64,000 nucleotides of DNA. Origin: Pseudomonadota bacterium. GTDB taxonomy: Bacteria > Pseudomonadota > Gammaproteobacteria > Burkholderiales > Rhodocyclaceae. The notes under the pieces are model-generated. The model searched no databases. It saw nothing but the letters and a program-made list of their open reading frames with translations, and was not told the DNA's origin. The stretch is from the NCBI GenBank assembly GCA_029780075.1, contig JAKOZI010000125.1, positions 1 through 64,000 of the forward strand. The letters are read 5' to 3'. Shown piece after piece: positions 60,253 through 64,000 of this stretch; within the stretch, counting starts at the first letter, position 1, and the number at the start of each line of letters is the position of its first letter. A program made the translations under genes and the position numbers.

Positions 60253-60567
60253 CGATGACGGCGCAGCGTCGATCGACGAATCTGCCCTTCCTCGCAGCTC
60301 GATCACACTGTCGTGGGCGAGTGTCGTGGGCGAGTGGTTTCGGGTGCAGGGAGGAACGGCTACCATCGGACATCGGACCGAGAAGAAACCTGCCCAAGGC
60401 AGTCATCCAAGCGCTCCGGCTCCATGCTATTGATCTGTACGGCTTAGTGCCGCTATTCGTGGAAATTTAGTACCATGCGGAAACCGCAAACGGATCAACG
60501 GAAGCCCGCAGCCAGACGGCTTGCAGCGCGGTATGCGACGCCGAGCCGGGGAGCGGGCGGCGGCCTT

Positions 60568-61422
60568 ATGCGGCCAAAATGCTCCCGATTACAAAATTAT
60601 ATTACAGGAGTCACCTTGGTATCCCCACGGTTAGTCGCCAAAATTGAAACCGAAGAGTCCACCCTTCGTTTAGCGGTTCTTATTGACGCCGACAATGCCC
60701 AAGCGGCTGTCATTGAGGGGCTGCTTGCAGAAATTGCACGGTTCGGAGAAGCAACCGTAAAACGCATCTATGGTGACTTCACTGCTCCTACAAGCTCTTC
60801 CTGGAAGAAGGTGCTTCAACAATATGCCATAAAACCAGTTCAACAATTTGCATATACGACTGGCAAGAATGCCACGGACAGTACTCTAATCATTGATGCA
60901 ATGGACTTGCTCTACACGCGAAAATTCGATGGGTTTTGTCTGATTACGAGCGACAGTGATTTCACTGGTCTTGCAATGCGCTTGCGTGAAGAGGGGCTCA
61001 CTGTTCTCGGCTTCGGCGAAAGGAAAACGCCAGATGCCTTTCGTAATGCCTGCCATAAATTTGTGTTCACTGAAGTTCTTCGTATAAGTTCTGCAACCGA
61101 GCCCACTGCATTGGCAAAGAAGGCTGAATGTGATCAAAAATCGACTCCACCTCAACTCCCCACAGAGGTTGCGGAAACAAAACAAGAATTCCCTAGGAAA
61201 TTCGTACTCGCCGCACTTGAACAATCAAGTGACGACGCTGGATGGGCACATTTAGGCACTTTCGGTAGCTACCTCACCAAGTTGCAACCTGATTTTGACT
61301 CCAGGCTTTACGGTTACAAGAAGCTCTCCGAACTTGTCAAGGCCAAATCAGAACTCTTTGTAACCGAAGAACGACAGGCACCGGGATCAACACAAAAGGT
61401 TTTGTATCTTCGTGCGAAATAG
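60568..61422 (+). CDS. NYN-domain (LabA/DUF88) protein with C-terminal OST-HTH/LOTUS domain
   Basis: LAVLIDADNAQAAVIEGLLAEIARFGEATVKRIYGDF, NATDSTLIIDAMDLLYTRKFDGFCLITSDSDFTGLAMRLREEGLTVLGFGERKTPDAFRNACHKFVF; LOTUS-like FVLAALEQSSDDAGWAHLGTFGSYLTKLQPDFDSRLYGYKKLSELVKAKSELFV. Confidence 0.9.
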   Translation: MRPKCSRLQNYITGVTLVSPRLVAKIETEESTLRLAVLIDADNAQAAVIEGLLAEIARFGEATVKRIYGDFTAPTSSSWKKVLQQYAIKPVQQFAYTTGKNATDSTLIIDAMDLLYTRKFDGFCLITSDSDFTGLAMRLREEGLTVLGFGERKTPDAFRNACHKFVFTEVLRISSATEPTALAKKAECDQKSTPPQLPTEVAETKQEFPRKFVLAALEQSSDDAGWAHLGTFGSYLTKLQPDFDSRLYGYKKLSELVKAKSELFVTEERQAPGSTQKVLYLRAK

Positions 61423-61956: not shown

Positions 61957-63429
61957 ATGACCACTCTCTATGCTACGCTTCTTACGCCGAATCGATTTCG
62001 GCCCTCTACTGTCACGAATAGGAACATAATTGCGGAAGCGGAAAGCGACCGAGGACGTCTTCTGTTCTGCGCGGCATTTCGCCGACTTCAGCAGAAAGCT
62101 CAAGTCTTCTCAATGGAGCCGAACGCCGCAGTCAGAAGCAGGCTTACGCACTCATTTGAAGTCTCTCAAATGGGAAGATACATCGCTGACTTGATCGCCA
62201 AGTCGCTGCACGAGCAAGCCTTGGCCACCGACGATGAATGTACCGCGCTCGTTACGTTCGTCGAAAACTCATGCTTAATGCACGATATTGGCAACCCACC
62301 ATTCGGTCACTTTGGCGAAGCTGCTATCGCTACCTGGTTCAGCGAAAAAGGTGAGGAAGCCATTATCGAGGCGTGCAACACGGGGGCAGGTAATATTGGC
62401 ACTGCAGATCCTCGGCTCCAATCAGCAATATCAGATTTTCTCGAGTTTGATGGTAATCCCCAAGGCTTGCGAGTCGTAGCCAAGCTTCAAAGAAACTCGG
62501 ACGAATTCGGACTGAATTTAACAAAGACGACCATCGCTTCATATCTGAAATACGTAAGAGCAAGCGGGTTGTCGGTTGCCGAAATCAAGTCGCCGTTCAC
62601 GAAGAAATGCGGATACTTTCAAACGGAAGCACAGATTATAGCGGACATATGGCGGCACTTTAGCTACATCGAGCCCAGACGATTTCCCCTAGCCTACATA
62701 ATGGAGGCTGCGGATGACCTCGCGTATTGCATAAGTGACCTTGAAGATTCGATAGAGAAGGGGCTACTCAATCAGGTCTTTGCTTTATCTGAACTCTTTG
62801 ATCAGTGGAAAGCCAATACCAAGACGATAGCTTCGCATCCAACATTCGCGAAGATCGACCAAATTCTAAAGAACGCTGCATCTGGGAATTTAACCTATAC
62901 CGACTTCAGAACAGCACTCAATCGTGAGATAGTAGAGTACTGTGCCAAACGGTACATTGAGAATCATGATCAAGTCAATCTTGGTACACTACCGTCGCTT
63001 ATAGCATCTGACTCTCCGGCTGGCCACATCCTCAATCTACTAAAGGAATATTGCCGAAGCAAAGTCTACTGCCATGAAAGTGTTCAACGCGTAGAGCTCG
63101 CAGGTTACAAGGCAATATATGGCTTATTAGAAAGCTTCAAGTGTTTGCTGACCTGCAGCTTTGAACGTTTCAGTTGTTCACTCGACTACGCCCAGAACAA
63201 AGACAACATCGGCCGGAAAATAGTAGTTGAGAAAAAGCTATTGACTCTATTCCCAAAGAACTATATCAAGGTATACAATGATGACTTAAAATCATTGGAT
63301 AGAAATTGCAATGATTTCAGGTTTCGAGAATGGGCCTTGCGAGCACACCTAGTAACGGATTTTCTCGCTGGCATGACTGATGACTTCGCAATGTCCACCT
63401 ACCGCACGCTTTCAGGAATGAGGCTCTGA
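61957..63429 (+). CDS. dgt: dGTP triphosphohydrolase-like HD-domain protein
   Basis: AESDRGRLLFCAAFRRLQQKAQVF, RSRLTHSFEVSQMGRYIA, CLMHDIGNPPFGHFGEAAIATWF, YIMEAADDLAYCISDLEDSIEKGLL. Confidence 0.92.
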   Translation: MTTLYATLLTPNRFRPSTVTNRNIIAEAESDRGRLLFCAAFRRLQQKAQVFSMEPNAAVRSRLTHSFEVSQMGRYIADLIAKSLHEQALATDDECTALVTFVENSCLMHDIGNPPFGHFGEAAIATWFSEKGEEAIIEACNTGAGNIGTADPRLQSAISDFLEFDGNPQGLRVVAKLQRNSDEFGLNLTKTTIASYLKYVRASGLSVAEIKSPFTKKCGYFQTEAQIIADIWRHFSYIEPRRFPLAYIMEAADDLAYCISDLEDSIEKGLLNQVFALSELFDQWKANTKTIASHPTFAKIDQILKNAASGNLTYTDFRTALNREIVEYCAKRYIENHDQVNLGTLPSLIASDSPAGHILNLLKEYCRSKVYCHESVQRVELAGYKAIYGLLESFKCLLTCSFERFSCSLDYAQNKDNIGRKIVVEKKLLTLFPKNYIKVYNDDLKSLDRNCNDFRFREWALRAHLVTDFLAGMTDDFAMSTYRTLSGMRL

Positions 63430-63434
63430 TTCCC

Positions 63435-64000
63435 GTGATTCTACCCTCGCATCCCTATTGGCAACTGCGCGCACTGGCTCAGTCGCAATCGGGTGTCATC
63501 TCGAAGTTCAATCTAAGCTACTACGAGTATGTTCCGCAATCTCTTTCGGACACACGCCAACTCATAGCAGTCAGCCTGCAAGATTTCCTGAATGAAGCGT
63601 TTATAGAGAACATAATTCAATCAACGCCCTCCGGACGCGATTTGGCATTTCACTCACAGGTTACAACAATGGAGTCAGACGACTTGCACATTCCAATGGT
63701 CGATATGTCAACAGGTTCGGCCGCACAACTAGAGAAGCTTCGACCATTCTTGAGCGCTTTTCTCTTCGAGAAATTTAAGTGGTACAAAAGTGGAAGGTCG
63801 TTTCATGGCTACGCAAACGCGCTGGTCGACCCGAAGGAATGGGCATCCTTAATGGGAAAGCTATTGCTCGCGAATCAGAAGGGACTGCATCCTGCGGTTG
63901 ATCCCCGTTGGATTGGGCACAGACTGATTGCGGGCTACTCCGCACTACGTTGGACTAAGAACACCTCGCATTACATTGAATTGCCACGAGCAATCGATTG
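63435..64000 (+). CDS. Partial ORF, archaeo-eukaryotic primase-like (AEP) candidate, runs off window edge
   Basis: GTG start 5 nt after dgt stop; 188 open codons to window end: VILPSHPYWQLRALAQ...HIPMVDMS...KSGRSFHGYANALVDPKEWASLMGKLLL...VDPRWIGHRLIAGYSALRWTKNTSHYIELPRAID. Confidence 0.75.
   Translation, partial: MILPSHPYWQLRALAQSQSGVISKFNLSYYEYVPQSLSDTRQLIAVSLQDFLNEAFIENIIQSTPSGRDLAFHSQVTTMESDDLHIPMVDMSTGSAAQLEKLRPFLSAFLFEKFKWYKSGRSFHGYANALVDPKEWASLMGKLLLANQKGLHPAVDPRWIGHRLIAGYSALRWTKNTSHYIELPRAID

Follow-up and report, generated by a model that had tools for sequence, protein, structure and literature searches.

A conserved gene pair encoding an E. coli Dgt-type dGTPase and a small protein of predicted primase fold in proteobacteria

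The two genes and their products

The features of the locus are listed in Table 1, in which the window is the whole stretch of DNA that was analysed, 64,000 nucleotides in length. At its end a dGTPase gene of the E. coli Dgt type is followed on the same strand by a shorter reading frame, which encodes a protein resembling the archaeo-eukaryotic primases (AEP). An AG-rich sequence, GAATGAGG, is found just 5' of the gap between them.

Table 1 Coordinates of features in the window, further along its contig (C110), and at related loci
Feature	Position	Strand	Remarks
Low-GC segment	60000..64000		GC 0.45–0.55; on to ~65500 of contig
NYN nuclease + OST-HTH/LOTUS gene	60475–61422		315 aa
dGTPase ORF, E. 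coli Dgt-type	61957..63429	+	490 aa, ATG start
AG-rich sequence	~63416–63423		5' of gap
Intergenic gap	63430..63434	+	5 nt
AEP-like partner ORF	63435..64000 (in window)	+	GTG start, 188 aa complete
GmrSD_N-type, then HipA-like gene	L003:2602–5493 (C110 65602–68493)		560 aa, 402 aa
Caspase-family-looking ORF	L003:6228–7952	−	574 aa
nrdB, Pseudomonas	L015:3258–4508		by separate Pfam test
nrdB, Pseudomonas	L025:3308–4555		by ORF
PRTase-CE + NADAR	L020:1961–3674		upstream of pair
Lone AEP-like gene	L027:5932–6585		no dGTPase beside it

The initial annotation described a GTG-started frame 5 nt after the dGTPase gene, open for 188 codons, and this description is confirmed. It also took the frame to be cut off by the edge of the window, which proves not to be the case. 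The contig goes on to 72369, and its sequence places a TGA stop codon at 63999–64001, one base past the end of the window. The entire 188-residue protein therefore lay within view, and the stop codon rules out a truncated larger primase. A chance open reading frame is ruled out by the match to a Pfam family (PF24387), by homologues in 16 other loci, and by the codon-position pattern: on comparison with the closest homologous pair (locus L090), changes are most frequent at codon position 3, followed by 1 and then 2, as expected for a coding sequence under selection.

The only Pfam match of the AEP-like protein is to PF24387 ("Archaeo-eukaryotic primase 1D-like"), spanning residues 52–184 with an E-value of 8.1e-34 and a score of 116.7 bits (cut-off 27). 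All 16 aligned homologues match the same family. No sequence similarity to solved primases was detectable, and a PDB profile search using the alignment returned spurious matches only. An AlphaFold2 model based on the alignment of 16 homologues has a mean pLDDT of 91.2 and a pTM of 0.87. When the model was compared with the PDB using Foldseek, the top matches were 3h20 and 3h25, both being the primase RepB' of RSF1010, with TM-scores of 0.53 and 0.51 and probabilities of 1.00 and 0.99, far ahead of the rest. Replication and primase proteins also head the list of viral fold matches. The Foldseek E-value is modest (1.4e-3), so the assignment depends on Pfam, the model and the conserved motifs being in accord, and together these show a predicted AEP fold.

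The residues that are invariant across the 16 homologues include D90, S119, G120, S122, H124, Y126, D156, R158, W159, G161, H162, R163, L171 and R172, and the conserved residues match AEP motifs I, II and III. The sequences HIPMVDMS, SGRSFHGY and VDPRWIGHRL..., picked out from the window alone as possible AEP motifs, are these same conserved segments, being invariant or nearly so. In motif II, S122-x-H124 (within S119-G-R-S-F-H124) is invariant in 16/16, as is the acidic residue of motif III, D156 (in D156-x-R-W-x-G-H-R...L171-R172). Motif I of classical AEPs contains two acidic residues. Here there is a single one, D90, in all 16 sequences; the lack of a second, already remarked on for the window protein, is true of the whole family. 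Nucleotidyl transfer may therefore be lost, which makes catalytic competence uncertain, and on this account the protein is filed here as AEP-like and not as a primase. The initial description of it as primase-like is thus upheld for the complete protein as regards the predicted fold, but not as regards a truncated primase, and with this motif I neither priming nor polymerisation is assured.

The dGTPase has HD and HD_assoc domains in Pfam and aligns to E. coli Dgt (4x9e) with an E-value of 2.3e-75. It scores 491.6 bits against the E. coli-type model NF003429, which is above the equivalog threshold (cut-off 405), a naming that should be taken cautiously since the paired dGTPases form a separate clade (see below). 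The PADLOC dGTPase model matches at 1.1e-65. The HD catalytic residues H65, H109-D110, H118, E121 and D253 are all present, and in the alignment they are invariant or nearly so among the paired homologues.

Conservation, descent and mobility of the pair

When one genome of each species was scanned, 15 AEP-like loci were obtained, of which 14 have an E. coli-type dGTPase gene immediately upstream on the same strand. L090, found independently by an HMM search, is also paired, and is the closest relative of the window pair (51% and 58% identity). With the window included, 16 of 17 proteobacterial loci are therefore paired, a count that takes in L017, where the dGTPase gene is incomplete because the contig begins within it, and a Pantoea plasmid (L022), where it is split in two frames. 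In the remaining locus, from an alphaproteobacterial MAG (L027), the AEP-like gene stands alone. The lone protein keeps all the invariant motif residues, and may act with another partner. A further match to PF24387, in G215, was not counted: it is below the cut-off, and the longest frames of the 3-kb contig are unlike the family.

The two genes overlap by exactly 4 nt in 14/14 paired loci of the first set and by 1 nt in L090, with the 5-nt gap of the window being the third arrangement. These overlaps bear out the translational coupling that had been suggested from the window. The pairing is real and conserved. It had been put forward as a candidate new system; the co-conservation on which that proposal depended is what is found here, but the AEP-like domain is not in itself new, being an already named Pfam family.

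A tree was calculated for 13 full-length paired dGTPases and 31 unpaired ones, E. coli Dgt among the latter. The paired enzymes form one clade (support 94/94, found in 96% of bootstrap trees), whose sister group consists of E. coli Dgt and a Dgt from the same family as G412, the unpaired Dgt-type enzymes near the clade being thinly sampled (two rows). No AEP-like gene was found in the flanks of the unpaired dGTPases that were examined (approximately 1.5 kb where the contig allows). Distances among the dGTPases correlate with those among the AEP-like proteins (r 0.56, with none of 5000 permutations as high), a correlation that may partly come from shared host ancestry. Groupings cross taxonomy, for example placing Acinetobacter with Sedimenticola and a betaproteobacterium. 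The two proteins have co-diversified.

The AEP-like gene is absent from all 60 relatives searched. It is present in three of the 399 genomes of a phylum sample, the source genome included, and in 2/399 genomes in the family of G412. There is one match among plasmid records and none among GenBank phage records, while in E. coli genomes the sole match is the housekeeping dgt, with no AEP-like DNA. The pair has a GC content of 0.477, compared with 0.642 for the window and approximately 0.65–0.70 for the genome, and the low-GC segment in which it lies is read as horizontally acquired. In L090 a pair of GC 0.41 lies between flanks of 0.68, and the insert seems to consist of the two genes and nothing else. 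No empty insertion site was recognisable in same-genus genomes, where the blocks that flank the pair are on separate contigs or widely spaced. The cassette is thus rare, patchy, mobile, and AT-rich in GC-rich hosts. The host genome has a separate dGTPase on contig C35, and a dGTPase family match is found elsewhere in every same-genus genome searched, as well as in the source genome, which makes the paired dGTPase an extra copy.

Genomic surroundings and possible function

Directly upstream of the pair are HsdS/HsdR in L016, and the neighbours in L014 include IetS and a restriction protein resembling type III. L013 has a type II methylase nearby and L019 a tyrosine integrase, and in a pooled scan one neighbour gave a match to an XhoI-type endonuclease model. 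In an Oceanospirillaceae MAG (L020) the pair is preceded by PRTase-CE and NADAR, which constitute another nucleotide-related immune unit. The enrichment of the pair near defence genes is an impression and not a statistic. In two Pseudomonas genomes (L015 and L025) the pair is directly downstream of nrdB, the ribonucleotide reductase small chain, which reflects either a preferred site of insertion or a functional tie to the supply of dNTPs. A TSCPD gene adjoins the pair in L018, and a DNA polymerase A-type ORF in L023. In these four loci such genes take the place of known defence genes as neighbours, and the surroundings also fit nucleotide metabolism.

It is worth adding some observations on the window and its contig. 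The protein encoded upstream in the same low-GC segment combines an NYN nuclease (PF01936, 2.8e-37) with OST-HTH/LOTUS (PF12872, 2.3e-17), and matches a phage family of unknown function (phrog_37744, 1.4e-63). Downstream, the stop codon of a GmrSD_N-type gene is adjacent to the start codon of a HipA-like kinase gene, and the two may be a second unit, of defence or toxin type. Beyond the HipA-like gene is an ORF that looks like a caspase-family protein (peptidase C14); other genomes of this genus have related sequences.

We hypothesise, with somewhat more confidence than doubt, that the pair is a mobile module in which the dGTPase is the effector of a nucleotide-depletion defence and is controlled by the AEP-like protein. 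The mobile, defence-rich context and the analogy with Clover (discussed below) point to an anti-phage role. We also infer that the AEP-like protein regulates the dGTPase, presumably by restraint rather than activation and perhaps through a nucleotide product. By draining dGTP, the dGTPase would halt replication of the phage DNA, at some expense to the host, and the AEP-like protein, translationally coupled to it, would exert the control. Most probably it would either sense nucleotides and bind the dGTPase, or make a (di)nucleotide for an allosteric interface, so keeping the dGTPase quiet until infection alters the nucleotide pool, in the way that CloB acts on CloA. Control of this kind is favoured because the gene logic of Clover recurs here with an AEP-fold partner.

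Primases make short linear (deoxy)nucleotides in their first step. It is conceivable, if rather doubtful, that the AEP-like protein is a signal synthase whose short linear (deoxy)nucleotide constantly restrains the dGTPase, the effector being released when the phage interferes with the nucleotide pool or with the signal. The main rival to nucleotide signalling is direct binding, a reading that we hold to be equally tentative: the AEP-like protein would be a non-enzymatic, antitoxin-like or sensor subunit, which binds the dGTPase or loads nucleotide or single-stranded DNA onto it, and makes no signal. This would suit a small single-domain protein whose motif I has only one acidic residue in every family member, and also the strict 4-nt overlap, which is frequent for stoichiometric partners. 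Moreover, E. coli Dgt is itself controlled by single-stranded DNA. However, the S-G-x-S-x-H of motif II, D156 and the arginines that follow it are invariant in all 16 homologues, which exceeds what a plain binder needs, even if substrate binding alone could explain these motif II and III residues.

A role in replication, repair or dNTP balance, with the AEP-like protein acting on DNA ends or primers, the dGTPase tuning the local dGTP level, and any defence incidental, is unlikely. The fold relatives are indeed plasmid and phage primases, and some loci adjoin nrdB, the TSCPD gene or the DNA polymerase A-type ORF, but the pair is rare, patchy and mobile in a host that has another dGTPase. The loci showed no consistent linkage to a helicase, a replication initiator or a relaxase, and the record searches gave no phage match and a single plasmid match. 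That two unrelated genes have spread together by chance is strongly disfavoured and very improbable indeed: the one locus with the AEP-like gene alone would fit such hitch-hiking, but it has to be set against pairing in 16/17 loci, constant order and strand, a near-constant 4-nt overlap, a single partner clade and correlated divergence. We continue to favour a dGTPase under the control of the AEP-like protein, and if this is correct, primase-type folds would join the regulators of nucleotide-depleting immune effectors.

Comparison with known systems

A literature search found no description of a dGTPase–AEP pair. The accession of PF24387 is close to those of HD-CE (PF24391) and PRTase-CE (PF24390), which suggests the same source study. 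We take the names HD-CE and PRTase-CE to be those of Nicastro et al. 2023, and PF24387 was probably deposited from the same work; that paper, which lay outside the search, may mention the association.

The Shewanella-type anti-phage dGTPase (NF041026, PADLOC) is likewise an HD dGTPase that is presumed to deplete dGTP. However, the window dGTPase fails the NF041026 cut-off, scoring 194.8 of 400 bits, and the Shewanella-type system is, to our knowledge, encoded by one gene and lacks an AEP-like partner. RSF1010 RepB' provides the best PDB fold matches of the AEP-like model, but the gene described here is not in a plasmid replicon, and its product has one acidic residue in motif I.

Clover is, like the present pair, a two-gene unit found in mobile or defence regions, in which an HD dGTPase is combined with a small protein of nucleotide-transferring fold. 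Its dGTPase, CloA, is toxic without its partner, is activated by dTTP, and is restrained by p3diT made by CloB, a Pol-beta nucleotidyltransferase; primases are not mentioned in the Clover paper (PMC12265719). Among solved structures, CloA (9p8t) comes next after the Dgt enzymes in its relatedness to the window dGTPase, with an E-value of 1.2e-49. The differences are that the partner here is of PF24387 and predicted AEP fold, in place of the Pol-beta CloB, and that the dGTPase is of the E. coli Dgt branch. Of the eight p3diT contacts of CloA that can be compared in the alignment, the window dGTPase keeps four (R38, F41, N181 and R314), and four are replaced (R34 by S30, D37 by G33, N75 by Q71, and Q311 by T315). 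R29 and T25 fall outside the alignment, and the CloA chain numbering is two higher than that of the paper, as inferred from matching residues. With the pocket half replaced, the ligand, if there is one, is probably not p3diT. In CloA, Y452 stacks on dTTP (PMC12265719). The window dGTPase has F477 at this position, which is F in 12/13 paired dGTPases, compared with Y in 10/11 unpaired ones in that comparison. Membership of Clover can be ruled out, on the basis both of the partner and of the pocket residues.

In Panoptes, a polymerase-type protein again lies beside a toxic effector, and inhibitory nucleotide signalling is the logic proposed here also (PMC12657230). It differs in its cyclase, mCpol, which is of the Cas10 type, and in its effector, 2TMbeta (PMC12657230), which is not a nucleotide-degrading enzyme. 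If our hypothesis is correct, the combination of a toxic nucleotide-degrading effector with a governor of nucleotidyltransferase fold would have arisen more than once. Should the AEP-like protein in addition prove to be a signal synthase, it would be the third polymerase fold to be found in inhibitory nucleotide immune signalling, after the Pol-beta CloB and the Cas10-type mCpol. As a unit of two genes and approximately 2 kb, the pair is small and directly testable beside Clover.
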